Source of the DNA: Anaerolineales bacterium
GTDB taxonomy: Bacteria; Chloroflexota; Anaerolineae; Anaerolineales; Villigracilaceae
Length of the DNA stretch: 50,277 nucleotides
Direction of reading: 5' to 3'
Assembly: GCA_020060235.1 (NCBI GenBank)
Contig: JAGVAO010000002.1
Span: 1-50,277, forward strand
A program made the position numbers and the translations under genes. The notes below the pieces were generated by a model. That model had not been told where the DNA came from. It did not search any database and was given only the letters and a program-made list of their open reading frames with translations. Positions 1,933 to 48,379 of the stretch are shown here, piece after piece. Every line of letters starts with the position of its first letter. Positions within the stretch are counted from its first letter, which is position 1.

Positions 1933-3304
1933 CCTGCAACGTTATCTCTCCGCCGCACAAAAAGCACAGGCAGTCATCAGCCAGGTGCTCGACAGCCGCC
2001 CCGGAACCAGCTCCGAGTACATCCAGGGCTGGGTTTTGCGCGGCACGCCTCAGAACGATGTCATTTTCTACGCCGTCCTGGATGCCAGCCGCATTCCCCA
2101 GCCGGAGCCTTTCGCGCGTGCCACTCACCAGATTTCCAGCGCCCTGGGCGGACAGCGGGTCTACTGGGGCAACTCGACCGGCTTTCGCTTTGCGGTTGTC
2201 CTGACCCCAGCCAAACGCCTGCCCAGGCAGATCGAACTGCCCACGAACCTCCCGGCTGGCCGGGCGATGATTGGCCTGCGGCCAGATGGACAGGCAGCGG
2301 GCGGCAAATGGGGCGACTTGAAGCACATAATCGTGGTGGGTTACACCGGCTCGGGGAAATCCGTGACCACTCGTTCGCTGGTCTATCAGGCCATCCGGCA
2401 GGATTTCAACCTGGTGCTAGCTGACCTGGACGGCACCACCTTCCCGATGTTGGCTGACCACCCCAGCCTGCTGGCTCCCCTCGCAAACACGACCGATGAG
2501 TTTATCGAGGTTTTGCGCCTGGCACTCGGCGAACTGGAGCACCGCTCCAGCCTGTACAAGCGGGCGGCGAACTACCCCGAGAAAATCGAGGAATACAACC
2601 AGTGGGCGGCGGCGAACGGCCAGGAACCCCTCAAGCGGGTGCTGATCGCTCTGGATGAATTCAACTCTGCCGTGACCAAGACCGGCGGTCCGGATGGGAA
2701 ACTCGGGAAACTGGCCGTTGAAATTGCCAGCCGAGGGCGCAAGTTCGGGATAACCCTACTCTTGAGCGCTCAGGATTTCAGCAAGGAGGTCATTGGAGCC
2801 GTGCGCGACGAAGTAGGCGTGATTGTCGCTCATAAGGTCAACAGCGAGAACGTCGCCCGAAATGTCGGTGTGGCTGCCGCGGCGCAAATCTCGGAACGCA
2901 CTCCTGGCCGGGCGATCACCAATCGTTGGGGACAGATCCAGGCGTTTTACCTGGACAAGTCTCACCTTCTCACTAGCACACAACCGTCTGATGGAATAAC
3001 CCCGGAAGAACGAGCCATCGCAGAAAAGGCAAAAGCTGAGACAAATGGAAAAATCAGCCGGGAGGTTTTGATGGGTTGGGGCCTGGGACAAGGCGAAGCC
3101 CGCCGGCTGCTGTACGCCTGGGAAACGCGCGGCTGGGCGGTCAAGGACCCGATGAGAGCAAATGCAACTTTCCTTTCGCCGAAATTGCTTGAATTGCTTA
3201 CCAACCCACCAACCCAACCAACCCCTACCAACTGGCTACCAACCCTACCAGCCCAGTTACCAACCCAACCAACCGGTTCTTTGTCTGCCGGGGCAGCCGA
3301 TTAG
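1925..3304 (+). CDS. FtsK/TcpA-like DNA translocase ATPase
   Basis: A 459-aa ATPase of the FtsK/SpoIIIE/HerA class. Walker A is GYTGSGKS (residues 139-146) and Walker B is VLIALDEF (D244, E245), followed by SRGRKFGITLLLSAQ, typical of FtsK-like motors. Residues 1-115 form an N-terminal domain without membrane segments. A possible winged-helix lies at about 385-425, followed by a Pro/Thr-rich tail. FtsK-like proteins pump DNA during division or, as TcpA or TraB, during conjugation of Gram-positive plasmids. Its position between membrane proteins and the partition genes fits a plasmid transfer or segregation motor. The tail is encoded by C-rich direct repeats that may serve as a DNA site (see 3199-3277). 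Confidence 0.8.
   Translation: MIDLQRYLSAAQKAQAVISQVLDSRPGTSSEYIQGWVLRGTPQNDVIFYAVLDASRIPQPEPFARATHQISSALGGQRVYWGNSTGFRFAVVLTPAKRLPRQIELPTNLPAGRAMIGLRPDGQAAGGKWGDLKHIIVVGYTGSGKSVTTRSLVYQAIRQDFNLVLADLDGTTFPMLADHPSLLAPLANTTDEFIEVLRLALGELEHRSSLYKRAANYPEKIEEYNQWAAANGQEPLKRVLIALDEFNSAVTKTGGPDGKLGKLAVEIASRGRKFGITLLLSAQDFSKEVIGAVRDEVGVIVAHKVNSENVARNVGVAAAAQISERTPGRAITNRWGQIQAFYLDKSHLLTSTQPSDGITPEERAIAEKAKAETNGKISREVLMGWGLGQGEARRLLYAWETRGWAVKDPMRANATFLSPKLLELLTNPPTQPTPTNWLPTLPAQLPTQPTGSLSAGAAD
3199..3277 (+). repeat. C-rich TACCAACCC direct repeats upstream of parM-like gene (candidate centromere)
   Basis: The core TACC(A)ACCC or a close variant starts at about 3199, 3226, 3237, 3246 and 3258, with further CCAACC units between. 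Spacing in the second half is 9-12 bp. The strand is almost free of G. The repeats overlap the 3' end of the FtsK-like gene and end about 60 bp before the ParM-like gene. In parMRC systems the centromere parC is a block of about 11-bp direct repeats upstream of parM, so this is a candidate. It could also simply be codon bias for Pro/Thr repeats. Confidence 0.4.
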
Positions 3305-3336
3305 AACCTTCACTTACTTTCGACAAGGAGAAACCT

Positions 3337-4314
3337 ATGCAAACCAACTTCATCGGATTTGATGCCGGAAACGGCGCGATCAAACTATACGGAGCAACGG
3401 GCGGATTGGAAGTTCTATCCCAAGTCTCCACCAATGGTTCCAAGCAGGTGGTCAGCACCTTCGGACTGCACAAGCAAAAAGCGCCGATGCATATTCTCAA
3501 TCCCTATGGCTCTTTCTATGTCGGCGCCGGCGCGCATGATTGGGGTCGTCCGGTGGAAAGCCTGGATGCCGAACGCAACAATGGAACTCCCGAAATGGAA
3601 AGCCTTTTAAATGGAAGCCTGACACAACTCATCAAGTGCTATGGGGAACTTACCAGCCCCCTATCCCTCGTTATTGGCCTGCCTCAAGAAGCGCTGACCG
3701 GCGATCAGGCCAACACCACCCGGGACAGCGTGCGCCGCTGGCTGATCGGAACACACACCTGGGAAGCAGATGACAAGCCTTACGCAGTGGAAATTGCAGA
3801 CGTAAAGATTGCTTCCCAAGTCACCGGGGCGCTCTTTGACTACCTGCTCGATGAGAACGGTAAATTCATCCAGGAACGCAAACGCGCCTTCACCGAGGAA
3901 GTCGGGGTGATTTCAATTGGCTTTGGCACAGTAGAAATGTTAGTCATCAAGAACCGCGCCATCGTTCAACGTTTCACCCTGGGTACAGCTTCTGGGGTGC
4001 GCCGTTTGCTCGAAATCGCCGACAGCCAGAAAATGTATTCCCTGGGTGAGTCTGACCTGCGCCTCCGGCAGGGCAAGGTGGATCTGTCCACCGCCCTGCC
4101 GATATGGGAGCGGGAAGTCACGGGTGTAATTGAGAAGCAATGGGGCAATTACTGGAAGCGTTTTGCTGCCATTCTGTTGGTGGGCGGCGGAACGATCCTG
4201 CTCAAAAATACCCTACCCTATCGCTTCAATGGCAAGGCCTTTATTCCCGATGATCCGATTTTGTCAGTTGCGCGGGGTCTCTACAAGATGACCTTGTCCA
4301 ACAAGGAGAAGTAA
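3337..4314 (+). CDS. ParM/StbA-like actin-family plasmid segregation protein
   Basis: A 325-aa protein of the actin/HSP70 ATPase fold in its plasmid ParM/Alp branch. The phosphate-1 motif is FIGFDAGNGAIKLYG at residues 5-19 (invariant Asp, Gly and Asn). A phosphate-2-like segment (GVISIGFGTVEML) is near residue 190, with a normally conserved Asp replaced by Gly. The adenosine motif ILLVGGGTILL is near residue 280. Such proteins form filaments that push plasmid copies apart. An AAGGAG site sits just upstream of the ATG. The stop TAA shares a base with the next ATG, so it is translationally coupled to a small protein, as parM is to parR. Confidence 0.8.
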   Translation: MQTNFIGFDAGNGAIKLYGATGGLEVLSQVSTNGSKQVVSTFGLHKQKAPMHILNPYGSFYVGAGAHDWGRPVESLDAERNNGTPEMESLLNGSLTQLIKCYGELTSPLSLVIGLPQEALTGDQANTTRDSVRRWLIGTHTWEADDKPYAVEIADVKIASQVTGALFDYLLDENGKFIQERKRAFTEEVGVISIGFGTVEMLVIKNRAIVQRFTLGTASGVRRLLEIADSQKMYSLGESDLRLRQGKVDLSTALPIWEREVTGVIEKQWGNYWKRFAAILLVGGGTILLKNTLPYRFNGKAFIPDDPILSVARGLYKMTLSNKEK

Positions 4315-8277: not shown

Positions 8278-8598
8278 ATGGGCCAGAATAATTTTGACTT
8301 GATGGGATTCCTTGCTCCTCCTCCAAAAGATGAGCAAAAAACAAAGAGAAAGGGGCTTCCTTACATCGAACTCATTATTGAATGCGGACCTGAGGAAGAA
8401 GGAGAATTTCACCCTGTATTGATCACCGGTAAAGCCGCCGAAATCGTTTTTGAAATGCTCAAGAAAAAGCCAAATGGTTTTATTGTAATGGTGCGCGGAA
8501 GCTTCAAGTCATACAAGCGTAAAACACTCCCAATCGTTCATTACTTGGAACCATATGAGCCCAGTCAATGGTTATTGAGAAGGGCAGGATTAATATAG
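8278..8598 (+). CDS. Small protein, possible OB-fold
   Basis: A 106-aa protein 26 bases after dnaB; AGGAG at 8262 supports ATG 8278 (TTG 8275 is possible). The open frame extends further upstream inside dnaB, but that part is shadow. The body has alternating beta-like stretches (PYIELIIECG, FHPVLITG, GFIVMVRGSFKSY, LPIVHYLEPYEP), which could be an OB-fold such as single-stranded-DNA-binding proteins have. The match is by pattern only. As the last gene of the replication operon it may assist helicase loading or bind single strands. A bidirectional terminator follows. Confidence 0.6.
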   Translation: MGQNNFDLMGFLAPPPKDEQKTKRKGLPYIELIIECGPEEEGEFHPVLITGKAAEIVFEMLKKKPNGFIVMVRGSFKSYKRKTLPIVHYLEPYEPSQWLLRRAGLI

Positions 8599-8607
8599 TG
8601 TATTGAG

Positions 8608-8651
8608 AAATAAAACAGCCGCGCATCATTTACTCAGCGGCTGTTTTATTT
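8608..8651. terminator. Bidirectional terminator between replication and graspetide operons
   Basis: A perfect 15-bp inverted repeat (AAATAAAACAGCCGC / GCGGCTGTTTTATTT) with a 14-nt loop. The GC-rich inner stem is flanked by A-run and T-run, so it can terminate both the rightward dnaB operon and the leftward graspetide operon, which converge here. Confidence 0.85.
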
Positions 8652-8697
8652 CACTTAATCCAGTATTGAAGGATAGTTTAAATGATTATGAAAAAAC

Positions 8698-9564
8698 TCA
8701 TGGGGTAGGTGTGACAGATACAAAAAGAGTCTCGGTGGGAATTGCCCTGCTTGGGGACATTGTTATTTGAGGTGGTTGAGGCTGAACGGTAGGCTGTATG
8801 GTGCCTGATGGTGTTAGTGAAACTGGAATTGTTGGCGTAGCAGGCACCACTGTTTGTGTTTCGGTAAGCATCGCTGTGGTTGGTGTCAAAGATAGAACTG
8901 CAGATGATTGCGATAGGTAAATCCCGGTCGAATAAAAAATGTTGGGAATAAAGGTAAACGCAAGTAAGAGAAACAAAACAACCGAATTCCTAAACCACAA
9001 CTGCGAACCTATAAGATATGAAGCCTTTATATTATGTATTTGATTGTTTTTAGCGTAGCAGTAAATATAAGTTGTCAACCTATCTTTCTTTATCTCAATT
9101 GCACTCTGCCCATTCATTTTAAACACATCTGCGATATCAGGAAACGAATACCTGTAATTTCCAACGATTACAACCCTGGATGCAAGTAAAACCGTTACCG
9201 TCAAAGATATAACTATAAGGATGTAGATGAATAACAACGTACCTAGAAGCATAGGATGAAAAGGTTGTAATTCACTTGGTATCAGACTTGAAATCCCAGT
9301 AATAAATGCCGCTGAAATTCCTGTGACGCCAATCAGATTATAAGCTTTGCTTTCGAGCTTTTCCCCTCGAGAAGATTCATCATCTAACAGCCCTTTGCTA
9401 TAAACAAGGGCGTCATCAAGCTTTTTTGCATCCAGGTCTTTGACTTGGTTTTGAATATCACCAAGTTTTGTAGGCTCAAATGGAGCGTCACTCTTAAACT
9501 CAACTGTGCCAATTGCATATGGAAACAAGTCAATGCCCAAAGTCTCAATTATTCTATTTGTCAT
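8698..9564 (-). CDS. Three-TM membrane protein of the graspetide operon
   Basis: A 288-aa protein with a soluble N-terminal region of about 75 residues, transmembrane segments at about 77-96, 105-134 and 193-213, and a Thr/Pro-rich tail (225-288, repeated TPT/TPS) that is probably outside the cell. The charged motif DDESSRGEKLESKAYNL just before TM1 resembles the layout of SLATT-type 2-TM proteins, but this is only a pattern resemblance. The start lies 3 bases after the stop of the ATP-grasp gene, so the two are coupled. A role in export, immunity or surface display of the modified peptide is inferred from the operon. No transporter ATPase or protease domain is present. Confidence 0.7.
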   Translation of the reverse strand: MTNRIIETLGIDLFPYAIGTVEFKSDAPFEPTKLGDIQNQVKDLDAKKLDDALVYSKGLLDDESSRGEKLESKAYNLIGVTGISAAFITGISSLIPSELQPFHPMLLGTLLFIYILIVISLTVTVLLASRVVIVGNYRYSFPDIADVFKMNGQSAIEIKKDRLTTYIYCYAKNNQIHNIKASYLIGSQLWFRNSVVLFLLLAFTFIPNIFYSTGIYLSQSSAVLSLTPTTAMLTETQTVVPATPTIPVSLTPSGTIQPTVQPQPPQITMSPSRAIPTETLFVSVTPTP

Positions 9565-9567
9565 GAC

Positions 9568-10533
9568 TTATTCCTGATTAAGAAGCAAATTTATTAGCGA
9601 TTCTCTAATAAGGATATCAGGCAATAACTGTTGTATCCATGCCCATTGTCCATTTGGATTTATTTCGACAAATACGCATTCATTATCAGGAGTCAATATT
9701 AAATCTATGGCTCCAAATTGTAGACCCAAATTCCTGACTAATTGGACGCACTTCTTCTCCACTTCAACTGGCGGATTGAATATTTTATGTGGTAGATTAC
9801 CATTCATAACCCTTCGCCAATCATGTATCGCCGATTGTGTGGATTGAGAATCTATCTCTATCGTAAATACCTTGTTGCCAACCACAGTAATTCTCAATTC
9901 TTTATTTTTATGGATGTACTTTTGCAACAAAGTTGGCGCAAATTTTATATTATCAAGTTTATCAGCCTTGTCGTTTCCCACTCGGTTTGTAAAAATAAAA
10001 CTCTGTTCATCTCCCCTTAATAACTTGCCTTTTTTCAAAGTCTTATAAACAACATCAAACTGAAAATCTGTACAAAAATTTCGAGCTGAAATAGGGTCGT
10101 TAGTAATAAGAGTTGGCCACGTAATAAATCCCACATCGGAAGCTACCTGAAGTTGAAACATTTTATTCTCAGCTATCCTAATACTATCCGGGTTGCTAAC
10201 CCAAAAACATTTCAAAGTTTTCCACAAGCCTTCCAAGAAGGCACCACTTTCCTCAATAATAAAATTTCGGGTTTCCGGATCAAGAATTTCAGAATCTGGA
10301 ATAGCACGAATTGGCCTTCTATACCAAATGCTAGTTATATCTTCAAAGTTCAATTTCAATTTTGGAGAATTAATAAAGCCGCTAATTACGCCATCCCTTA
10401 TCAACCAGTGTATGGAAATTGATTTTGGAAAATCTTCGGTATTAAATCTAAAATAGTCAATTTTTCTGCGTTTTAATTCAACTATCAAGAAATCAGCAGT
10501 TTGATCTTGGCGATTAGTAATTATTAAAATCAT
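9568..10533 (-). CDS. MvdD-like ATP-grasp ligase (graspetide macrocyclase)
   Basis: A 321-aa protein, the usual size of microviridin-type MvdC/MvdD ATP-grasp ligases. The pre-ATP-grasp part has FRFNTEDFP and SIWYRRP (69-74), typical of this branch. The ATP-grasp core has VVYKTLKKGKLLRG (161-174, ATP-binding Lys), LLQKYIHKNKELRI (202-215) and the metal-binding CVFVEINPNGQW (E290, N292). These enzymes activate Asp/Glu side chains with ATP and join them to Thr/Ser (ester) or Lys (amide). It sits 53 bases after a precursor with repeated Thr/acidic cores and 3 bases before the membrane protein, giving a three-gene leftward operon. Ester ring formation is inferred, as the cores offer Thr but few Lys. 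Confidence 0.88.
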   Translation of the reverse strand: MILIITNRQDQTADFLIVELKRRKIDYFRFNTEDFPKSISIHWLIRDGVISGFINSPKLKLNFEDITSIWYRRPIRAIPDSEILDPETRNFIIEESGAFLEGLWKTLKCFWVSNPDSIRIAENKMFQLQVASDVGFITWPTLITNDPISARNFCTDFQFDVVYKTLKKGKLLRGDEQSFIFTNRVGNDKADKLDNIKFAPTLLQKYIHKNKELRITVVGNKVFTIEIDSQSTQSAIHDWRRVMNGNLPHKIFNPPVEVEKKCVQLVRNLGLQFGAIDLILTPDNECVFVEINPNGQWAWIQQLLPDILIRESLINLLLNQE

Positions 10534-10586
10534 TCATTCGTCTCTGGATAAAGCATAGAAACTAACTCCAATTCCAAAATAACTGT

Positions 10587-11015
10587 TCAGTTATCGCTAT
10601 CGGATTCTTCTGTTTGGGTATGAGTAAGGGTGCGCGTGGTTAATGGCGGTTTTGGGCCATATGAAATATCTGAGTCCGAGTCTGATTGTTCGCTTTGTAC
10701 AGAAGTGGCAGTCTTCGTCCCTAAAAGAACGAAATTCTCATCGTCTGAATCTGAAGATTCACTTTGTTTCTCCGTAACTGTGCGTGTTCCCTGGAATGCA
10801 TCTACATCATCATCAGATCCCTCATCCTTAATCTTGGTCATCGTTTTTGTCCCCCCTATACCACAGGATTCAACAAATGGAATTTTGCGCCCATCGTTGG
10901 AAAGGACAACTGAGAGATCTTCGTCTTCATCATAAAAATAGGGAATATCTTCCCAATTTTCTATGGGTTTCTCTTCGAATAAAAGGCCAAATGGAATTGG
11001 TTGTAATGCTGGCAT
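10587..11015 (-). CDS. Graspetide precursor peptide with four core repeats
   Basis: A 142-aa acidic protein. ATG 11015 is chosen over the upstream start at 11048 because AAGGAAGG lies 10 bases before it. Leader (1-50): MPALQPIPFGLLFEEK, whose PFGLLFEE (8-15) resembles the PFFARFLE helix that ATP-grasp ligases read in microviridin leaders. Four cores follow, each T-[KR]-T-x-T-x4-E-x2-D-x-D: T56/58/60 with E65, D68, D70; T77/79/81 with E86, D89, D91; T100/102/104 with E109, D112, D114; T127/129/131 with E136, D139, D141. Three Thr and three invariant acidic residues per core suggest up to three omega-esters each. The last core ends the protein. Confidence 0.85.
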   Translation of the reverse strand: MPALQPIPFGLLFEEKPIENWEDIPYFYDEDEDLSVVLSNDGRKIPFVESCGIGGTKTMTKIKDEGSDDDVDAFQGTRTVTEKQSESSDSDDENFVLLGTKTATSVQSEQSDSDSDISYGPKPPLTTRTLTHTQTEESDSDN

Positions 11016-11087
11016 ATTATCTATTCCTTCCTTTCCAACTAATCGCAAATTTGTACATGAGAGATTATCCAGAAACCAATTGAATTA

Positions 11088-11117
11088 AGTATATCAATTT
11101 TTCACAAAAAACGATAA
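11088..11117 (-). promoter_or_regulatory. Tentative promoter of graspetide operon
   Basis: On the minus strand a -10 box TATACT (11093-11088) lies about 70 bases before the precursor start. A weak -35 TTATCG (11117-11112) is 18 bp further up. The region is AT-rich. The -10 is good but the -35 is poor. Confidence 0.35.
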
Positions 11118-11190
11118 TGACACAACTTATTTGATTCTATTAGCAAATTCGCCATCTCATGCCAAGATAGCAATATTTTCTATTTTTCGC

Positions 11191-11218
11191 TTGACAACGT
11201 CCGCACTTTCCTTATAAT
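11191..11218 (+). promoter_or_regulatory. Strong sigma70-type promoter
   Basis: TTGACA (11191-11196) and TATAAT (11213-11218), both exact consensus, with a 16-bp spacer. Transcription should start near 11225 and run into the leader with a terminator hairpin ahead of the SSB operon. Confidence 0.85.
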
Positions 11219-11224
11219 TCGTAC

Positions 11225-11307
11225 CTGTGTAGCGTTCCCAGGGAGGATTGTACCTGTAACTCTCGCGCATGAACGATGCGCTCCCTTTCCGGGGAGCGCA
11301 TTTTTTT
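11225..11307 (+). ncRNA. Short leader RNA ending in terminator (attenuator or small RNA)
   Basis: Between the promoter and the first gene, a hairpin TGCGCTCCC / GGGAGCGCA (11277-11285, 11292-11300) is followed by seven T, a complete intrinsic terminator. Transcripts would be about 83 nt unless the hairpin is bypassed. This implies either a stable small RNA or transcription attenuation of the downstream operon. No known riboswitch was recognised. Confidence 0.55.
11277..11307 (+). terminator. Intrinsic terminator in leader of SSB operon
   Basis: A 9-bp GC-rich stem with a 6-nt loop, followed by T7. It lies 20 bases before the ATG of the next gene, with CAGGAGA as ribosome site in between. Confidence 0.85.
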
Positions 11308-11327
11308 ATTTCTCACAGGAGAACATC

Positions 11328-11498
11328 ATGCCCAAACTCTCGCAACTCTCATCCATCCTTAATGGCGAAATCCCGGTGGTCTTGATTTACGTTGAGAACA
11401 ACCAGCCCAAACGTTTCGAAGTTGCCAAACCTGAAGAAGCCGCGGCCATGTTGGCGGTTGTCGAAGTCATCAACGAAACCAACCAAGGACAGGAGTAA
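11328..11498 (+). CDS. Small 56-aa protein ahead of SSB
   Basis: Starts MPKLSQLSSILNGEIPVV and ends in ETNQGQE. An AGGAGA site 7-12 bases upstream makes translation convincing. It has a beta-like first half (GEIPVVLIYVENNQPKRFEV) and an Ala-rich helix (PEEAAAMLAVVEVINE). It ends 3 bases before the SSB gene, whose ribosome site (AGGAG) lies inside its last codons. Function unknown. It could be an early regulator or an SSB partner. Confidence 0.65.
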   Translation: MPKLSQLSSILNGEIPVVLIYVENNQPKRFEVAKPEEAAAMLAVVEVINETNQGQE

Positions 11499-11501
11499 CC
11501 G

Positions 11502-39401: not shown

Positions 39402-39746
39402 ATGACCCAAGACATTATTCAAAATTTGATTGGTGAAAAAATCAGGAAAGCCCGCGAGGAGATTGGCTTAACTCAGGATGAACTTGGAAATGAAATTCAT
39501 CTAAGCCGTGTTTCCATTAATGCGATCGAAAATGGTCATCGCAAACAAATTAATTATGAAAGTATACGGAAAATTGCACACGCTCTAAACAAACCAGAAA
39601 AGTATTTTTTTGGAGACGAAGCTGAGATTCAATACTTGATACCTGAACTTAAGTTTTCGGTGAATAAGATGTCCAAACTTCCCCCAGAAAAACAAGAATT
39701 GCTTATCCCTTTCATAAATAGCATAATGAATATTGTTTCAGCATGA
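39402..39746 (+). CDS. XRE-family transcriptional regulator
   Basis: A 114-aa protein with the Cro/C1 helix-turn-helix at residues about 9-60: KIRKAREEIGLTQDELGNEI followed by HLSRVSINAIENGHRK. The C-terminal half is a short helical dimerisation part. It overlaps the large PD-(D/E)XK gene by 4 bases, and a 19-bp palindrome upstream is its likely operator. It probably controls the toxic partner gene, as control proteins of restriction systems do. Confidence 0.85.
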   Translation: MTQDIIQNLIGEKIRKAREEIGLTQDELGNEIHLSRVSINAIENGHRKQINYESIRKIAHALNKPEKYFFGDEAEIQYLIPELKFSVNKMSKLPPEKQELLIPFINSIMNIVSA

Positions 39747-41824
39747 CCAAACGAGAGAATATTATGAAAAACAACCATGCTTTGATCGATTTAATAAAAC
39801 AAGCTGATCTAGATGGCAATCTAGATGTCATTTTTGAAAAATTACCAGAAAGTGATTTTTGGGGAGATGCAAAAGAACTTCTCATCGACGATGATTTTGC
39901 TCAAGATCTTAGTCCTACTCTATTTGATGCAATTAGAAAAAATTTTGGCAGAATTGAAAGTAAATATGCCGCCGTAGGCCTAGTGTGTTATGCATTAAAA
40001 GTCTTAAAAGATGGAATAGCGTATGATGCAGCACAAAAGGTTGTTCTCCAAAATGCAGCACTATGTGATCAAAGTGCTTTATTGATGAGTTACAAAGCTT
40101 TTGAAGCTCGTTATAAGGATGAGGTTATTTCAGGGGATCAGTTTATTGCAGCTAAATCTTTAGAAGGCGCGGTAATGACCGCAATATTGGGCAGCAATCA
40201 AAGCTTGCGCTTTTTGGCAATAGGTCTTTTACTCACTGAATTTCCTCCAGTCCCTGAAGAGCAAGATGACCCAGCATTTTTGCCAACTATGGCTCTTCGC
40301 TTGCTTGGGCACTGCTACGATTTGCAGCCAAACAGCACTAACATTGCTGCTAAAAACACTGAGTATCTCTATGTGAACAATATTGCAACTAGGGCGGAGG
40401 CCCAATTTGTTGCCGGTATTGTTCAACTTTCTGATGCATTCGCATTGCCGCATGAAGAACCATTGCTTAAAAAGCTCAAGTTAGCGAGAGACCATTTTCA
40501 ATTGGCCTACAATGCCGAAGAAAATAGAACTGATGCAGAGTTATTTGCGGCAGTGTGTGATTGTTTTCTGAGTTTCCTGGAAGGCAACCACACACAGTCT
40601 GAAAAAAGACAGAATATAGAGAAGGCTAAGAAAGTCTTAGTAGAAAGATTGTTATTACTGGGAAAGGATCCCTTGGCTTATTCGAGCAACTTTGAAGTTA
40701 GCATAGTAAAAATATTGGGGATGTTGGATGATTGGAACGAGATAGTTAAACAAAATATTCCTGATCGTGTGGATATAAAACCAACAATGAGTATTTTTGC
40801 AAAATTTTATTATTCATTGCGAAATCTTGAAATTCTTGGTTCGCTGGCAAAAAACATTCGTGATATATCTATTAGTTCGATCATACTACCGCAAATCCAA
40901 AATTCCTTTATTAAAATTCAAGATATAAGGCAAAGGCTAAACGCCGTATTGAACGATCCACAGTGGAGAAGTGTGGCGCCAGATACAGAAATTTCATTCT
41001 ACGAAATAGTGCTTAGCTCGATAGAGAGTTTGTCATCCCCAAAAGATTTGGCCGCCGTGCAAGTTAGGCTAGTCATTGAAGCGGCGGCCAAATACAAACC
41101 AGAAGTAGCTAGCTTTATTCTAAAGTCGTTTGATGAAGGAAGAGACATTACAGAAATTCTGATTGATGTTTTTGACGATTCGCCAAATCTCGAATCATCC
41201 GAAGGCCCTGTACAAAAAATACTAGAAAATCTGATATCAAGTTTGCCCACAAACTTTAGCGATGAATATCTTAAGCGTCGCTATCTCGGAATTGCAATTA
41301 GGCACATTGTTCATTATGCGTCAACTTTGTTTAATGCAAAACAAGAAGATGAATTTCGTTTTCTGTTTGCTGAACCCAAAGGGTTAGGGAAAAAAGCAAA
41401 AGAAAAAGATCTAGAAATCCATTTTTATAAGAGAATGCTATTTCAACCAATTATAAAAGTCGAACATCAACCCGACGCTGTTGCACCTGGTCGCCCTGAT
41501 TTAAGCATTTGTTTCCCAGATGACATCATATTCCCAATAGAGGTTAAAAAAGAGGATAAAGACACAAGCAAAGAAAATATTAACAACAATTACTTAGCAC
41601 AAGCCCAGACTTATGCATCAGCGCAGAGTGGTATCGGTTTTTTGTTTGTGCTTGATCTAACTGATAAGCGTCTTGGCACGCCAATAAGGAATTTTAAGGA
41701 TAATTTTTATCTCGACCATAAGGTTGTGCCAAATTCAACGTCTCAAGATTGCGTAATAGTAGTAATTTTTCCTGCCAATCGTTTTTCTCCGTCTGATCAC
41801 AGCTGGAAGGGGCGAAAAAACTAG
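39743..41824 (+). CDS. Large protein with C-terminal PD-(D/E)XK nuclease-like domain
   Basis: A 693-aa protein, coupled to the XRE gene (ATGA; an alternative start is 39764). The N-terminal 550 residues are helical with no clear domain. The C-terminus has GRPDLSICFPDDIIFPIEVKKE (about residues 583-605), a P-D-x(n)-E-x-K signature, followed by LAQAQTYASAQ. It is therefore likely a nuclease under tight control. Low GC, unlike the plasmid backbone. It ends 5 bases from the convergent SMC-like gene. It may be a stand-alone restriction factor or the effector of the neighbouring ABC-3C-type system. Confidence 0.6.
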   Translation: MTKRENIMKNNHALIDLIKQADLDGNLDVIFEKLPESDFWGDAKELLIDDDFAQDLSPTLFDAIRKNFGRIESKYAAVGLVCYALKVLKDGIAYDAAQKVVLQNAALCDQSALLMSYKAFEARYKDEVISGDQFIAAKSLEGAVMTAILGSNQSLRFLAIGLLLTEFPPVPEEQDDPAFLPTMALRLLGHCYDLQPNSTNIAAKNTEYLYVNNIATRAEAQFVAGIVQLSDAFALPHEEPLLKKLKLARDHFQLAYNAEENRTDAELFAAVCDCFLSFLEGNHTQSEKRQNIEKAKKVLVERLLLLGKDPLAYSSNFEVSIVKILGMLDDWNEIVKQNIPDRVDIKPTMSIFAKFYYSLRNLEILGSLAKNIRDISISSIILPQIQNSFIKIQDIRQRLNAVLNDPQWRSVAPDTEISFYEIVLSSIESLSSPKDLAAVQVRLVIEAAAKYKPEVASFILKSFDEGRDITEILIDVFDDSPNLESSEGPVQKILENLISSLPTNFSDEYLKRRYLGIAIRHIVHYASTLFNAKQEDEFRFLFAEPKGLGKKAKEKDLEIHFYKRMLFQPIIKVEHQPDAVAPGRPDLSICFPDDIIFPIEVKKEDKDTSKENINNNYLAQAQTYASAQSGIGFLFVLDLTDKRLGTPIRNFKDNFYLDHKVVPNSTSQDCVIVVIFPANRFSPSDHSWKGRKN

Positions 41825-41829
41825 GCCAG

Positions 41830-43881
41830 TTAGAACAATGGCCCATCTGTCATTTCAAGTTTGTCCTGATCACATATTTGAGCAATTTCCTCGCGAGTAC
41901 TGGCTAAAAACACTTGAACTTTACCGCCAAATAGGGTTTCCATATCCTTAAATCCTACTAAAATCGCGTCAAGATATTTATCCGTCATTTCTGCACTACC
42001 AGGGGCATCAACCATAAGCAAACAAGGGTGTTTGCCAATTTCATGTTGAACTTTGATCGTCAGCATCGCAAGGTGAAACGCAATTTTAATACGTAACCGT
42101 TCCCCTATATCCATATCTTCAAATCTTGTAGTAGTCTCGGATTGAACAGCAAATAAATTTAGCTGTTCTTTCAAAAATACCCTTTGCAGATTTTGGACTC
42201 CGAATCTTTTGGCATAATTTGTAACCAGATCATCTAATGTCCTGAGCAATTGCTCGTGATTTACACCCAAATTTGCTTGCATTAGCTTTGTTGCTTCTGA
42301 CAAGATTAGGAACTTTAATTTAATTCCTTCTAAATAGTCAGATTGACTTTCTCTAGTTTGTTGTTGCAAATAAGAAAGTTCGCCCTCATACTTTCCTCTC
42401 TTAAGCAATAAATTACGTAATTCGTGGCTAAAACCATCCCTCTCTTGTCTTGATATGTCCGTGAATTCCGCCTTATATTTAGCTAGATGGATTTGTAGAT
42501 CGGAAATCTGTGCATGTACACTTTTTATCTCTTTGCGCAAACTTCTTAATTGTTTCTGTTCTCTTTGGAGTTTATCCTCATAATCTTTTAATAACTCTTG
42601 TTGGGAAGTTATATTTGACAAAGGTTTCAGAGTATTACTACAAATTCGGCATTGCCCACTCGAAACTTCTTCTTCTATACGAGTTAGAGAAATCGTGTTT
42701 TCACAATGAGGACATCGGTCAACTTGAATACCACTAAGAAATACTCTAAACTCAATCGCTTCCTTTATTTCCTGCATATATCTTTTAATCGAATTGATTT
42801 CATTTTGGATCTGGCTTTCTCTGCTGATCAGATCTTGTTCGCCATATGATAATCTAATGACCTCAGAATCTGTATCAGAAACCAATTTTCTTAAGTTTTC
42901 AAATGCTGTTTGATCAACAAAAATCGATTTTTCGCTCTCTATATTTTCTATCTGATGATTAGTGTTCATCAAATCATCTTCTAGTCTGCGGATTTTCTCC
43001 AACACACCTTCTGCATTTACTGTTACTCTCTTTTTCTCAAACTCAAAATGATTCTTGGCCTCATCTGCCCTCAGCTGTAAATGTGAAACAATGTCTATAA
43101 AATCAAGGCCCATATACATCCAAATAGCTCTTTGTCTATGCTTAGGCGAAAAATCTCCCCATGGAAACAAAAAATCGGAATAATCATCTGCGCCAATAAA
43201 TAGTGCTTGAGAATAAATGCTCCAATCAATGTTTTTTGCATCGAGTTCGAACATGTTTTTTGATTTTTGAGCTAACTGCAAAGGGTGGAAATTTGTATAC
43301 CTGCTAAAAAACTTAGTAACGGATTCTTTCATTGCAGCGCTGCCAGAGAAGCTATCTATTCTTTCTAAGTCTTTGTTTCTTTCGGATAAAACGATATCTA
43401 TCCCAGCCCTATAAATTTCCCCTGCTACAGATGGGTCAGATTGGACACGTGGAGAATATTGAATTGTAAAAATACCATCATCGATTTCAAATTCTACAGC
43501 CACACTTTTAATCCAAAGCAGAACATCTTTTTTGAGCTTAGGTTGCACGCCTGTAATCGCCCAAAGGATCATTTTCAGAATTGTAGATTTTCCAGAACTA
43601 TTTTCTGCTACCCAGGCATTAATACCAATCCCGAACTCTCTTTGATATGAAAATGGAAAAGCTTTTTGTTCATCTGCTGGCCATTTCACTCCACTAATAT
43701 TTACTTTTCGTATCATTATGGTGGCGCCAGCTTTAATTCCATCATCGAAACGATCCGCTAAAAGGGCTTTCAAGCCAGCATCAGTCAGCACATTACTAAT
43801 CTGAGTTAGCGGTAGATTCTTTTTATGCTTCTCTAGCGCCACTGCATAAGTTTGATGAACAAGATCTTCAAAAGTAATCAT
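41830..43881 (-). CDS. Rad50/SMC-like ATPase with zinc hook (Lamassu LmuB-like)
   Basis: A 683-aa protein. Walker A is ENSSGKST (93-100). Two long coiled coils flank a hook with CPHC (about 389) and CRIC (about 411), which can bind zinc. The C-terminal part has an ABC-signature-like DIGERLRIKIA and Walker B LLMVDAPG, where a usual catalytic Glu is Ala, as in some RecF/Rad50-like defence ATPases. It overlaps the upstream gene by 4 bases. Size and layout match LmuB of Lamassu, or the ATPase of ABC-three-component systems, which sense phage DNA ends or structures. Confidence 0.75.
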   Translation of the reverse strand: MITFEDLVHQTYAVALEKHKKNLPLTQISNVLTDAGLKALLADRFDDGIKAGATIMIRKVNISGVKWPADEQKAFPFSYQREFGIGINAWVAENSSGKSTILKMILWAITGVQPKLKKDVLLWIKSVAVEFEIDDGIFTIQYSPRVQSDPSVAGEIYRAGIDIVLSERNKDLERIDSFSGSAAMKESVTKFFSRYTNFHPLQLAQKSKNMFELDAKNIDWSIYSQALFIGADDYSDFLFPWGDFSPKHRQRAIWMYMGLDFIDIVSHLQLRADEAKNHFEFEKKRVTVNAEGVLEKIRRLEDDLMNTNHQIENIESEKSIFVDQTAFENLRKLVSDTDSEVIRLSYGEQDLISRESQIQNEINSIKRYMQEIKEAIEFRVFLSGIQVDRCPHCENTISLTRIEEEVSSGQCRICSNTLKPLSNITSQQELLKDYEDKLQREQKQLRSLRKEIKSVHAQISDLQIHLAKYKAEFTDISRQERDGFSHELRNLLLKRGKYEGELSYLQQQTRESQSDYLEGIKLKFLILSEATKLMQANLGVNHEQLLRTLDDLVTNYAKRFGVQNLQRVFLKEQLNLFAVQSETTTRFEDMDIGERLRIKIAFHLAMLTIKVQHEIGKHPCLLMVDAPGSAEMTDKYLDAILVGFKDMETLFGGKVQVFLASTREEIAQICDQDKLEMTDGPLF

Positions 43882-44555
43882 AATGCCTCTCCATAAATCT
43901 GCATAAATTTTTCTTTTACTTGATCTTCAATCGTATCTATTGTGGTGAGGTAAGCTGTGCCAGAATAGCTTTGATCTAAATATTGAATATTGCGAATCTC
44001 AAAACCGCTCAACTTCTCAAAATAACTACTAATAAGTTTGCATCGTTCAGCGTACCACTGTACAGAAGGGCACTCTGACATCATCTGTTCGACAGCCTTT
44101 TTTCCCTTGGGTTCAAGATAATATTTTGTGGCTCTTCCTTTTTCCGAGAGACGCCTGTGAACCATTGAGCGACTAGATAAATATGAAATTACATTGTCCA
44201 GAGGCTCGTAAGCACCTCTCAAGTATTTACGCATGGGTATCCAATGAATAACTGGCTCATCATCATTAAAAATTTTTTGAATTATCTGTTTAATTTCATC
44301 TTTACGCTGGCTCTCCCCTTTTTCGATAAGGCTTAGCAATGCTGCAGAAAAATGATCTGGGTAGCGAAGCCAAAAATCAATTTTTTGAAGTTTTGTTTCC
44401 GAATCAATGCGCCACAAACTTATTTCTGCTTCAGAATCAAAATCTAAAGATAGCTGTACGGGTCCGGATGTAGGATAATCGTGGCAATAGTATAAAATGA
44501 ACAAAATACGAACAGCATAGCGTTCAATAGGCCCAGCATCTGCGTTATTTTTCAT
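43878..44555 (-). CDS. Lamassu LmuC / ABC-3C middle-component-like protein
   Basis: A 225-aa soluble protein; GGGA six bases before ATG 44555 favours this start over 44567. The middle has a winged-helix-like part (DNVISYLSSRSMVHRRLSEK). The C-terminal helices are charged. The small partner directly upstream of a zinc-hook SMC ATPase, joined by ATGA, is the hallmark of LmuC/middle components of ABC-3C systems. The family call rests on context and size. Confidence 0.55.
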   Translation of the reverse strand: MKNNADAGPIERYAVRILFILYYCHDYPTSGPVQLSLDFDSEAEISLWRIDSETKLQKIDFWLRYPDHFSAALLSLIEKGESQRKDEIKQIIQKIFNDDEPVIHWIPMRKYLRGAYEPLDNVISYLSSRSMVHRRLSEKGRATKYYLEPKGKKAVEQMMSECPSVQWYAERCKLISSYFEKLSGFEIRNIQYLDQSYSGTAYLTTIDTIEDQVKEKFMQIYGEAL

Positions 44556-44622
44556 AAAAATTCCCATAATGCCGATCAGTATCAGTTTATAGGTTGTTGG
44601 TTAGAATCCATTTGACATAAAT

Positions 44623-47600
44623 CTACTCTAATGATTTATCCCTGGTGGCTTTCTTTGCATAAGGCAATTCAATAGAGGCTGGTTCGTTTAACTTTCTATA
44701 TACTTCCGAAACCATCCAATCCGAGACAGCTTTTTGAAAAGACGGATCATTCATGTAACGAGAGAAAATAGCCTCATTTTGATCCATCCGTTCAACGAAC
44801 ATGGTTTCGAGCATGCGGTTGAATATCAAGGCAAATTTATCAGCGGAGTTAACCTGAGCAGCTTGTTGCAATTCTTCGGAGCTGGAGGCTGTCTCGATAA
44901 TTTGGTCAAAAAAGAGCTGGTCGGCTTGATTGAAGTCGGTGCCGAAGCGTTCGTTGATGACATCAATCAATTGGGAAAGCGCAACAGCTGTATCACGAAT
45001 CAGGGCCGTGCCAACAGCGGTGGGCCCATCCAACGGTTTGACATAACCTTCAGTCAGGTCAATTGATCCCTCGCTGATTTTTTGTAGACGGTAATATTCC
45101 AGGCGGACTTCATTGTCAAAGTCATATTGGGGCTGGTTGGGGCGGTGCGGCAGCTTGGACGAGAGATGACGCAAAAAAACGTAAGCACGCTCCAGGTCGG
45201 TATCCTGGTAGGGAATAACCTGGCTCAGGAAAGCGTACAGGTTGCGGAAATCGACCAGTTTGCCGCGCCAGAGTTCAGCTTCGTCAGGTTTCTCAGTTTG
45301 ATAGGCTTTGAAGCGGTCGACGGCCGGGTCGATGGCCGCATTCATGGCCTGGTGATCTAAGGGGCTTTGACGCTGTTTCGGCTTGAAGTAAATCTCGCTG
45401 AAGCGTTCCACTTCCTCGCGCAGGTAAATGCCGGGTTCATCCAATTCACTTTTGAGCACGTAAAGCTGACCCGGGTCGGCTTCCTGCCCAAATTCCGCGC
45501 CTTCGTAGAACTGCTTGAAGGCAGCGTAGATTTCCTCGCGATCGTTGACAAAATCCAGTACGAAAGTATCTTCCTTGAACGGATGGATGCGGTTTAGGCG
45601 TGAGAGGGTTTGAACCGCCTGGATACCGGCCAGACGCTTATCGACGTACATAGTGTGGAGCAAGGGTTGGTCAAAACCAGTCTGGTATTTTTCGGCGACC
45701 AACAAAACCTGGTATTCACGGGTGGCAAACTTTTCGGGCAATTCGCGCTCGCGGATACCTTTGTTCATCCCTTCTTCGGTGTAGGTTTTATCGGGGATTT
45801 TGTCATCTGTGACGGTTCCAGAGAAGGCCACCAGGGTCTTGATGGGATAGCCCTTTTTTTTGATGTACTCATCAAAACTCTGCTTGTAGCGCACCGCTTC
45901 GAGGCGTGAACCAGTCACAACCATTCCCTTGGCCTTACCGCCAATCTTATGCCGGGTAAAAGCATTGAAATGCTCGATCATAACTTCGGTCTTTTGGGCA
46001 ATATTGTGCGGATGCAGACGCAAAAAGCGCGCTAAGGCGCGCGCAGCCTTTTTATGCTCGACATTGGGGTCGTCAGCCGTAGCTTTGATCAGGTTGTAAT
46101 AGACTTTATAGGTGGTGTAGCTTTTCAGCACATCCATGATAAAGCCTTCTTCAATCGCCTGGCGCATGGTGTAGCGGTGGAACGGCTCTCCATCCCGCCC
46201 AAAAACGGCCAGGGTTTTATGTTTCGGGGTGGCAGTGAAAGCGAAAAAGCTCAGGTTATCCTGCCGGGCGCGCTTGGCCATGCTGCGGAACAGTTCTTCC
46301 AGATGATCCAGCCCTTCTTCCTCGGCGCGGCGTTTGGCTTCTTCCTGCAACCTTTCCCCGCCCAACATACCTTTGAGTTCAGTGGCGGATTCGCCGGATT
46401 GGGAGCTATGCGCCTCGTCCACAATGACGGCAATTTGACGAGTTGGCAAGAGTCCCTTAGCCGCCAGCGAGTCACTTTCCTGGCGTTTTTCAGCCATTTT
46501 TTGCAGTTGTTTTGTGAGAAAGGGAAATTTTTGTAGAGTGGTGATGACAATCGGCACGCCGCTTTCCAGGGCTTGCGCCAGTTGGTGAGAATCCTCATCA
46601 ATTTTTTGAACCACGCCTTGGCGGTGTTCAAACTGGTAAATCGTATCCTGTAACTGGCGGTCAAGCACCCGCCGATCGGTGACAACTACGACGCTATCAA
46701 AGACCCGCTGCTCCTGGGTATTATGCAGAGAGGACAGGCGATGCGCTAGCCAGGCAATTGTATTGCTCTTGCCGCTGCCGGCAGAATGTTCGATGAGATA
46801 GTTCTGGCCGACTCCCTCGGTACGGGCCGAATCCACCAATAATCGAACCGCCTGCAGCTGATGATAGCGGGGGAAAATCAGGCTTTCTTTCTTGAATTTG
46901 CGCCCATCTTCATCATATTTTTCATCGACCTGGATATGCAGAAAGCGCGCCAACAGATCGAGCAGGCTGTCGCGCTGCAAGGTTTCTTCCCAAAGATAGG
47001 CGGTTCGATAGGTGCGCCCATTCGGATCAGGCGGGTTGCCCGCGCCTTTTTTGAAGCCTTTGTTGAAGGGCAGGAAGTGCGTGGCCTCGCCCGCCAGGCG
47101 GGTGGTCATCCAGACTTCTTCGGTATCGACTGCAAAATGTGCCAGCGCCCGGCGTTTGAATTCAAAGATGGGTTCGCGCGGGTCACGAGTGTGGCTGTAC
47201 TGCCATTTAGCATTTTCGATGGTTTGCCCTGTCATTGGATTCTTGAGTTCGAGGGTAATGACCGGGATCCCGTTGACGCTGAGGACTACATCCAGCGAAG
47301 GACGTTTGTGTGGGTCTTCGCCTTTTTTGAGTTCTTTGAAATGCACTTGGCGGGTCACGCAAACGCGATTGGCGGCGTAGCGCGTTTCGAGTTCGGGATT
47401 CATCCCATGCGCGGCTTTGAAAAAAGCCACCCGCAGGGTGCGCCCGTAGCATTTGAAGCCATGCCGTAGGGTGCTGAGTGAGCCGTTGGTGTCCATCCAT
47501 TTGCACAGGTCGGTGAGCACCTGGTCGCCGGTTTTCTCGCCGTGCAGGGCTTCGAGTTTGGCCCACTCTTTGGGCTGAGTTTCGCGAATGAAGTTCAGCG

Positions 47601-47736
47601 TTTCATCGGGGAAGATGGCGCGAACCGGGTCGAACTGGCCAGCGGCTTTTTGGTAGCCATTGGCCAGCAGGTGAGCTTCGATGACGGTCTCGAAGGCAGC
47701 TTCGGAGTGGGTGGGTGGGGATAAATTCACAGCCAT
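44623..47736 (-). CDS. hsdR: Type I restriction endonuclease subunit HsdR
   Basis: A 1037-aa protein of normal length. The N-terminal nuclease (HsdR_N) has SLDVVLSVNGIPVITLELKN (D, E-x-K). The SF2 motor has Walker A HSAGSGKS (about 317-325), DEAH in VIVDEAHSSQSG (about 438), motif III FAFTATP and motif VI QTLSRLNRIHP. It cuts DNA after translocation in a complex with HsdM and HsdS. HsdM was not found in this window and HsdS is only a remnant, so the enzyme may be inactive unless they are elsewhere. Starts 4 bases after the ptuB-like stop. Confidence 0.93.
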   Translation of the reverse strand: MAVNLSPPTHSEAAFETVIEAHLLANGYQKAAGQFDPVRAIFPDETLNFIRETQPKEWAKLEALHGEKTGDQVLTDLCKWMDTNGSLSTLRHGFKCYGRTLRVAFFKAAHGMNPELETRYAANRVCVTRQVHFKELKKGEDPHKRPSLDVVLSVNGIPVITLELKNPMTGQTIENAKWQYSHTRDPREPIFEFKRRALAHFAVDTEEVWMTTRLAGEATHFLPFNKGFKKGAGNPPDPNGRTYRTAYLWEETLQRDSLLDLLARFLHIQVDEKYDEDGRKFKKESLIFPRYHQLQAVRLLVDSARTEGVGQNYLIEHSAGSGKSNTIAWLAHRLSSLHNTQEQRVFDSVVVVTDRRVLDRQLQDTIYQFEHRQGVVQKIDEDSHQLAQALESGVPIVITTLQKFPFLTKQLQKMAEKRQESDSLAAKGLLPTRQIAVIVDEAHSSQSGESATELKGMLGGERLQEEAKRRAEEEGLDHLEELFRSMAKRARQDNLSFFAFTATPKHKTLAVFGRDGEPFHRYTMRQAIEEGFIMDVLKSYTTYKVYYNLIKATADDPNVEHKKAARALARFLRLHPHNIAQKTEVMIEHFNAFTRHKIGGKAKGMVVTGSRLEAVRYKQSFDEYIKKKGYPIKTLVAFSGTVTDDKIPDKTYTEEGMNKGIRERELPEKFATREYQVLLVAEKYQTGFDQPLLHTMYVDKRLAGIQAVQTLSRLNRIHPFKEDTFVLDFVNDREEIYAAFKQFYEGAEFGQEADPGQLYVLKSELDEPGIYLREEVERFSEIYFKPKQRQSPLDHQAMNAAIDPAVDRFKAYQTEKPDEAELWRGKLVDFRNLYAFLSQVIPYQDTDLERAYVFLRHLSSKLPHRPNQPQYDFDNEVRLEYYRLQKISEGSIDLTEGYVKPLDGPTAVGTALIRDTAVALSQLIDVINERFGTDFNQADQLFFDQIIETASSSEELQQAAQVNSADKFALIFNRMLETMFVERMDQNEAIFSRYMNDPSFQKAVSDWMVSEVYRKLNEPASIELPYAKKATRDKSLE

Positions 47737-47740
47737 AGGA

Positions 47741-48376
47741 TTATTCTTGATTTAGCAAATCTCTTGCCACGCAAGTAATTACATAACAAAACTGGGGGAG
47801 TTCGCCAGTTTCGCTTGGCGTACAGTAGTTTTCAGCAAAATTTAGAAAATCTTCACGTGTTAAGTCTACATCCATTGGAAATAGAATTTTATCAATGGAT
47901 TTTTTTCTCTCTGCATCAAGGAGCTGTAATTTCAACATCTTTATGGTTTTTTCTGCAGCTTCGTCATTCCCAAGGATATGCCCTTCCGTATCAAATCTAA
48001 ATCTTGCCTCGCAATCAGGCGTCAAGGGATGCACTGGTAAAAGATCATCTTCCCGAGCCTTCGCCCCAAATGCACAATGCCCATCTTTTGGAAAGGCGGC
48101 AAGCATGTTGTAATAATCCACGTCTTCGTACGTACCATTTATTTTAGATAAAGATTCTGGGTAAATATGTTCAATGTGAGCTGTATTTTCGAAGACGGAT
48201 AATCCCGTGTAACAGCAAAGCCACCCTTGTTCTTGAAGCAAGAGGCGCTTTAAGTTCGCTTTTACGCCCGAATCGAGTTGTCCAAAACGGCTATTTATTC
48301 GCTGGCCGTCTATTAACTGTTCGTCAAACCAGTGTAGCAAATCTTGCGGGGCCTCCCCCTTTTGAATGTATCGCAT
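47741..48376 (-). CDS. ptuB: HNH nuclease, PtuB-like (TIGR02646-type)
   Basis: A 211-aa protein. The N-terminal MRYIQKGEAPQDLLHWFDE is the family's start (MryI.kg..P..L..w). The core HIEHIYPES...YYNMLAAF...HCAFGAKARED is the HNH pattern. The usual zinc CxxC is CCYTGL here, with Thr instead of the second Cys. It is 3 bases after the ATPase gene. Together they match the Septu (PtuA/PtuB) defence system, in which PtuB is the nuclease controlled by the ATPase. Confidence 0.8.
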   Translation of the reverse strand: MRYIQKGEAPQDLLHWFDEQLIDGQRINSRFGQLDSGVKANLKRLLLQEQGWLCCYTGLSVFENTAHIEHIYPESLSKINGTYEDVDYYNMLAAFPKDGHCAFGAKAREDDLLPVHPLTPDCEARFRFDTEGHILGNDEAAEKTIKMLKLQLLDAERKKSIDKILFPMDVDLTREDFLNFAENYCTPSETGELPQFCYVITCVARDLLNQE

Positions 48377-48379
48377 GGC

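Follow-up and report, generated by a model that had tools for sequence, protein, structure and literature searches.

A four-core graspetide locus of an Anaerolineales bacterium encodes a membrane protein whose family is distantly related to PycTM and often adjoins defence genes

The window, here meaning the whole analysed stretch of 50,277 nucleotides from an Anaerolineales bacterium (contig JAGVAO010000002.1), contains three consecutive minus-strand genes, henceforth referred to as A, B and C, which encode a predicted graspetide precursor, an ATP-grasp ligase and a membrane protein. The third gene of this operon (8698-9564) was not mentioned in the sequence-only reading of the same DNA that preceded this analysis. 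The features of the locus are listed below in their order on the minus strand.

10587-11015, minus strand: graspetide precursor (A), 142 aa from the ATG plus stop (ORF running from 11015 to 10587)
10971-10994, minus strand: PFGLLFEE, putative ligase-binding helix of the leader, precursor residues 8-15, conserved with relative L032 and with the leader profile
10905-10934, minus strand: second leader motif YDEDEDLSVV (family form YDeelnlwV), conserved with L032 and with the leader profile
10806-10850, minus strand: core 1, TKTMTKIKDEGSDDD, starting at precursor residue 56
10743-10787, minus strand: core 2, TRTVTEKQSESSDSD, starting at precursor residue 77
10674-10718, minus strand: core 3, TKTATSVQSEQSDSD, starting at precursor residue 100
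10593-10637, minus strand: core 4, TRTLTHTQTEESDSD, starting at precursor residue 127
9568-10533, minus strand: ATP-grasp graspetide synthetase (B), 321 aa (ORF 10533-9568)
8698-9564, minus strand: membrane protein (C), 288 aa (ORF 9564-8698), 3 bases after the ligase gene

The gap between the precursor and ligase genes is 53 bases, and a purine-rich stretch, GGAAAGGAAGGAA, lies 5' of the precursor ATG at 11036-11024 (minus strand). The module coincides with an AT-rich block (8500-11500) of 35-42% GC, compared with 49-57% before it and about 52% just after it, and is inverted between a replicative DnaB-like helicase gene and an SSB-like gene. This block looks like an inserted cassette. The window also contains a defence island at 39743-49873, with LmuA, LmuB and LmuC (Lamassu), a type I-like restriction subunit, and PtuB and PtuA (Septu); these genes are located some 29 kb from the module, whose direct neighbours are the replication genes. 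On the plus strand, a perfect 12/12 sigma-70 consensus (TTGACA-16-TATAAT) at 11191-11218 is followed at 11275-11302 by a strong terminator-like hairpin ahead of the next gene. Together, these two elements suggest a short leader RNA or attenuator. A promoter scan did not rise above shuffled sequence.

All four cores of the precursor conform to the pattern T-x-T-x-T-x4-E-x2-D-x-D, with T1, T3, T5, E10, D13 and D15 present in 4/4, and successive core starts are 21, 23 and 27 residues apart. Shuffling of the precursor protein produced more than one core match in 0 of 200,000 trials (43 shuffles had one), and the motif is absent from every other ORF of the window (596 ORFs of at least 25 aa). In pairwise comparisons, the cores differ at 5-8 of the 9 non-key positions and at 18-26 of 45 bases, and silent differences are found in 3-6 of the 6 key codons. 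Because variation affects both the remaining positions and the silent sites within key codons, the six key residues look to be kept by selection rather than by recent duplication. Of the statements in the sequence-only reading, the exact spacing within the cores was confirmed on the minus-strand ORF, and selection on their Thr and acidic residues was supported.

The proposed leader motif PFGLLFEE also gained support. A leader profile built from 67 relatives, with the window and its relative L033 excluded, matched the window precursor with an E value of 8e-08, the best among the window ORFs tested. A ligase-binding role for PFGLLFEE is assigned by analogy with the microviridin leader motif PFFARFL, as given in the part of PMC8939145 that was available.

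The ligase scored 67.9 bits against the MvdD pre-ATP-grasp domain PF21068 (cut-off 27) and 253.8 bits against TIGR04187 (E 2.1e-75), below the curated cut-off of 350 of the latter; graspetide maturase models match the protein clearly, yet below their strict cut-offs. Its nearest solved structures are the microviridin-type ligases 5ig9 (E 4.3e-49), 7m4s, 7mgv and 5ig8. Among the ligases of core-bearing loci, residues K164, D277, E290 and N292 are conserved in 69/69 and R214 in 68/69. The prediction that A and B are a graspetide precursor and an MvdD-type ligase is therefore well supported. The ligase family and the leader helix type are shared with the microviridin enzymes MvdD and MdnC; the core motif, in contrast, is unrelated to that of microviridins, and an MvdC-type second ligase was not found in the window's own genome, where one ligase match only was obtained. 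A ligase relative at 1e-20 was present in 0 of the other 40 nearest genomes, and some relative at 1e-25 was present in 31 others of 400 genomes of the phylum.

GTDB contigs were scanned with two ligases, and the best 80 of 434 relatives were retained. The full set of 108 loci corresponds to 113 records minus five duplicates (L001, L031, L032, L036 and L004) and still contains the near-copies L067/L085, L076/L093, L092/L094 and L043/L045. The exact core occurs in 36/108 loci, the window included, and is distributed over Bacteroidota, Pseudomonadota, Nitrospirota, Kiritimatiellota, Ignavibacteriota and Chloroflexota. Precursors of these 36 loci have one (11 cases), two (13), three (9) or four (3) exact cores. 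A sister core, TxTx4ExDD, was found in 37/108 loci, for example as three repeats in Cerasibacillus (L086), and both kinds are mixed in one precursor, that of L035. In the ligase tree, a branch whose support of 93/91 falls short of the star mark of the tool separates all 73 core-bearing loci and 8 others from the rest, and the window pairs with the Chloroflexota locus L033 (support 94/91). On this tree the exact core requires at least 7-8 changes, and the two core kinds have therefore interchanged. Scans of viral contigs with the ligase alone and with a family alignment yielded no relative.

The ligase-led collection of these loci makes them uninformative on repeats that lack a ligase. A search led by the precursor, covering 298 genomes of the class, returned one other match, with two cores of identical pattern and an adjoining ligase 47% identical to that of the window; core repeats and ligase thus occurred together in the sole other genome matched. 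Two variations were seen among the relatives. The precursor at L068 (3538-3990) has a second leader-like stretch (YDEERDLSVDRDG) between its cores, and at L033, the closest relative of the window, a B12-binding radical SAM gene (1950-3365) lies directly upstream of the precursor, making an additional modification possible there.

The suggestion that the window precursor represents a new core type with a new ring topology was not supported, as the same core is present in 35/107 of the other loci examined. Window-type cores presumably belong to groups 3, 5 and 6 in the classification of Lee et al. 2020, which include thuringinin and OEP6-1. The available part of PMC8939145 describes a cluster of 250 precursors (cluster 13) with several repeats of group 3, 5 or 6 cores, and according to the accessible text of PMC12291112, OEP6-1 forms a stem-loop in which three cross-links are nested. 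Given the exact core elsewhere, the published repeats and the OEP6-1 cross-links, a new topology is unneeded. The plesiocin motif, which we take to be TTxxxxEE, has a four-residue inner loop like that of the window cores. Plesiocin (group 2) also resembles the window product in its four repeats on one precursor with nested esters per repeat, as far as PMC12291112 was available, but forms two esters per repeat, whereas each window core has three donor and three acceptor positions, alternating.

Judged by sequence, the window precursor family is cluster 13 of PMC8939145 as described in the part of that source available, its leader having been compared with the relatives found here rather than with the alignment of that paper. 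Common to both are repeats with Thr, Glu and Asp in this general order, a shared leader and a single ATP-grasp ligase, and the uncharacterised membrane protein associated with the published family (cluster 18) probably corresponds to C. The window differs in its four TxTxTx4ExxDxD cores, its Chloroflexota genome and a ligase whose best identity among the rows examined is 47% (to L033, Chloroflexota). The graspetide locus itself adds a new member to a published family.

C is predicted to consist of long helices, with three stretches of hydrophobic residues and a tail rich in Thr and Pro, and its AlphaFold model shows long helices at 46-98, 104-133 and 155-225 with high confidence (mean pLDDT 79.8). 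A phmmer search with the window protein recovered the ORF behind the ligase in many loci, with E values of 2.5e-12 to L037 and 2.9e-12 to L033. Placement was scored with a profile of 33 members, requiring the C start to lie -80 to 200 bases from the ligase. By this rule, C is directly downstream of the ligase in 65/73 core loci versus 3/35 loci without such cores (Fisher p 1.4e-16), 28 of the latter 35 being Chloroflexota loci with 1.5-kb flanks. The commonest junction is a shared 4-base overlap (offset -3), seen in 18 loci. Of the core loci outside the rule, L080, L092, L094 and L056 have a slightly larger overlap; in L034 C lies upstream, L068 has a C-like ORF in the opposite orientation, and at L063 the contig stops. 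In the remaining exception, Chitinophaga rupis (L071, 3980-5584), ligase and C are fused in one 534-aa ORF.

In the accessible part of PMC8939145, thuringinin loci are described as having a specific set of 198 membrane proteins that are uncharacterised (cluster 18), for which transport was suggested. These are probably the C family, the two being equated by description and not by sequence. Pfam and NCBIfam searches with 33 C proteins gave scattered weak matches and nothing firm. A PDB profile match to claudin (E 0.0012) extended over the membrane stretch and was taken as composition. Foldseek found 0 matches of the C model in the PDB at E<=0.001. The best VIA-align result, NINJ1 (9bia; Z 12.0, rmsd 3.0, 110 aligned), lies below the background for helical models (best about 14) and was rejected; no Pycsar chain was among the VIA-align matches listed.

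At the family level, C was linked to PycTM, the membrane effector of the anti-phage system Pycsar, which disrupts membrane integrity in response to cyclic pyrimidines according to the part of PMC11224242 available. PADLOC PycTM models matched 13, 12 and 7 of the 33 C proteins (best 8.5e-07), and the PADLOC CorA and CBASS 2TM models also matched a few members, more faintly. A genome search with one PycTM model retrieved true PycTM proteins and six C proteins beside graspetide ligases (3.6e-06 to 0.006). When 1596 ORFs, 192 of them with at least 2 predicted TM stretches, were ranked with a profile of 16 PycTM domains, 23 PycTM proteins came top, followed by 34 C proteins (28 when second copies of the same locus are left out), ahead of all other ORFs. 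In the reverse search, the C profile found 14/23 PycTM proteins. The window protein itself matched none of the PADLOC PycTM models and was not among the best 110 rows of the PycTM-profile ranking; alone it is below threshold, and it joins the PycTM kin through its family, by the phmmer matches to L037 and L033.

Profile-profile comparison by hhalign gave 96.6% for C versus PycTM, with an E value of 5.8e-10 over 158 columns. In this register ESKA lies on ETKA and NIK on WLK, aligning two lysines conserved in both families. As controls, reversing the profiles gave 1.5% and 1.3%, MotA/ExbB gave 1.6%, and three further membrane families gave 0.1-0.2%. The two halves of the C set gave 94.9% and 96.5%, the free-standing PycTM proteins by themselves 96.9%, and the HD-fused ones by themselves only 48.5% (E 1.8e-04). 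These alignments make the C family distantly homologous to PycTM. Three residues that are invariant in PycTM, a P, an F and a G located between TM2 and the second conserved helix, are not conserved in C, and a pyrimidine cyclase (PycC) does not adjoin C, whose window neighbours are the ligase and the replicative helicase. For these two reasons C was not filed as a Pycsar effector. A ligand other than a cyclic pyrimidine would fit the missing P, F and G. Many Bacteroidota genomes additionally carry long HD-domain-like fusions to PycTM (about 390-450 aa; L118-L135) that do not appear to belong to Pycsar operons. The literature searched contained no report of PycTM kinship or of a defence-island setting for the graspetide membrane gene; the Pycsar remark in the available part of PMC11118758 concerns a lasso peptide.

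The surroundings of the module were assessed using the nearest complete gene on each side at 68 core loci (124 genes). Control genes (113) were taken from fixed places on the first contigs of 25 of the same genomes; 40 control stretches were sought, of which 29 existed and 28 yielded genes. At 1e-10, 253 PADLOC models had a match among the flanking genes and 11 among the control genes; at E<=1e-50 the numbers were 45 and none. At E<=1e-50 this corresponds to 14/124 versus 0/113 (Fisher p 1e-04), where 14 is a cautious reading of 13 names in the 25 models listed (member counts summing to 16), not a per-gene count, and the neighbours common to L062/L078 and to L095/L105 are not independent. Among the 25 models listed were JetA (2 genes), GajA (2), PDC-S39 (2), GajB, Avs1a, LmuA, type I, II and III methylases, a type III endonuclease, PD-T7-1, PDC-M41B and PDC-M30B. 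At L095, the JetA gene adjoining C was confirmed by the Wadjet structure 8dk1 (2.3e-189); three further flanking genes compared with the PDB gave no match. Pfam identified 6 phage integrases, 2 resolvases and GmrSD in the flanks.

Four plasmid regions, a Leptospira phage and a faecal scaffold likewise carry the ATP-grasp gene together with C, accompanied by a precursor except in a single case. In Leptospira phage LE1 (KF114876; L173, 4679-6580), precursor, ligase and C occur in order. MT835913 (L172) was rejected as a phage case: its precursor sequence is identical to the one at the Sphingomonas parapaucimobilis locus L084 and bacterial genes surround it, and the entry, labelled as a faecal bacteriophage, is probably a mislabelled bacterial island. 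No match was obtained when plasmids were searched with the L035 C protein, or when E. coli was searched, at the DNA level only, with the ligase-C DNA of L079.

Taken as a whole, A, B and C may be a mobile three-gene conflict module, probably for phage defence, in which a multivalent cross-linked peptide controls the PycTM-like membrane effector C; we put this at about an even chance. A point against it is that bacteriocins and addiction modules, too, are carried in defence islands. B would bind the leader of A and join side chains within each core. Three nested cross-links are the natural prediction from the core family of cluster 13 and the OEP6-1 precedent, and the most likely pattern would be three nested esters per core (T5-E10, T3-D13 and T1-D15). 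Four such staples on one chain would make A a multivalent peptide, which could serve as a ligand, or as a restraint, of C. Infection would then tip the balance, and C would harm the host membrane as PycTM does on cUMP or cCMP.

A more specific version, advanced tentatively, is that of a peptide-signalled relative of Pycsar providing abortive-infection immunity, in which the ligase would staple the repeats upon infection and the stapled, multivalent peptide would cluster and open C, the peptide replacing the cyclic nucleotide and the tandem cores bringing several C subunits together. The module resembles the PycC-PycTM pair in combining an enzyme and a membrane protein in a short operon, in its defence neighbourhood and in the distant homology of C to PycTM. 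It differs in having a peptide ligase instead of a cyclase, a C protein without the invariant P, F and G, and a supposed signal that would be a peptide and not cUMP or cCMP.

That the product is a secreted protease inhibitor, with C as its exporter or immunity protein, was considered unlikely, despite the description of characterised graspetides as protease inhibitors and the suggested transport role of cluster 18, probably the C family, in the accessible part of PMC8939145. In 47/71 distinct relative cores the loop begins with K or R, which could suit trypsin-like proteases, and a GIGG lies before core 1 in the window precursor. Only 9/73 precursors, however, have GG or GA at a distance of up to 12 residues from their first core, neither a C39 peptidase nor an ABC transporter was among the 25 flank Pfam families listed of 107, C resembles PycTM and not a transporter, and the flanks are rich in defence genes. 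An addiction or toxin-antitoxin module of mobile elements, with C as membrane toxin and the cross-linked peptide as antidote and no sensing of phage, would agree with the PycTM kinship and with the mobile context (phage, plasmids, integrases and the AT-rich insert in the window); it was rated improbable, as the loci are also chromosomal and adjoin many different defence systems. Least probable of the explanations weighed is an ordinary graspetide locus in which C is a membrane anchor or ligase partner, for example for product display, and its PycTM kinship is uninformative on function: the ligase-C fusion, the existence of graspetide ligases that need a partner (PMC13097080, available in part) and the HD-PycTM proteins of Bacteroidota, which place the domain outside plain Pycsar pairs, speak for it, and the defence genes of the flanks relative to the control genes speak against it.

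What is new relative to the published family is the reading of the third gene as a membrane protein of the PycTM superfamily and of the module as a resident of defence islands. Such gene trios often adjoin bacterial defence genes and may be an unrecognised immune system. If the conflict-module reading is true, the graspetides of this large branch would act inside the cell as immune signals or restraints and would not, or not only, be secreted inhibitors. Their tandem repeats would then have a purpose, and a family that still had an unexplained membrane protein in 2022 could be tested directly with three genes in a laboratory strain.
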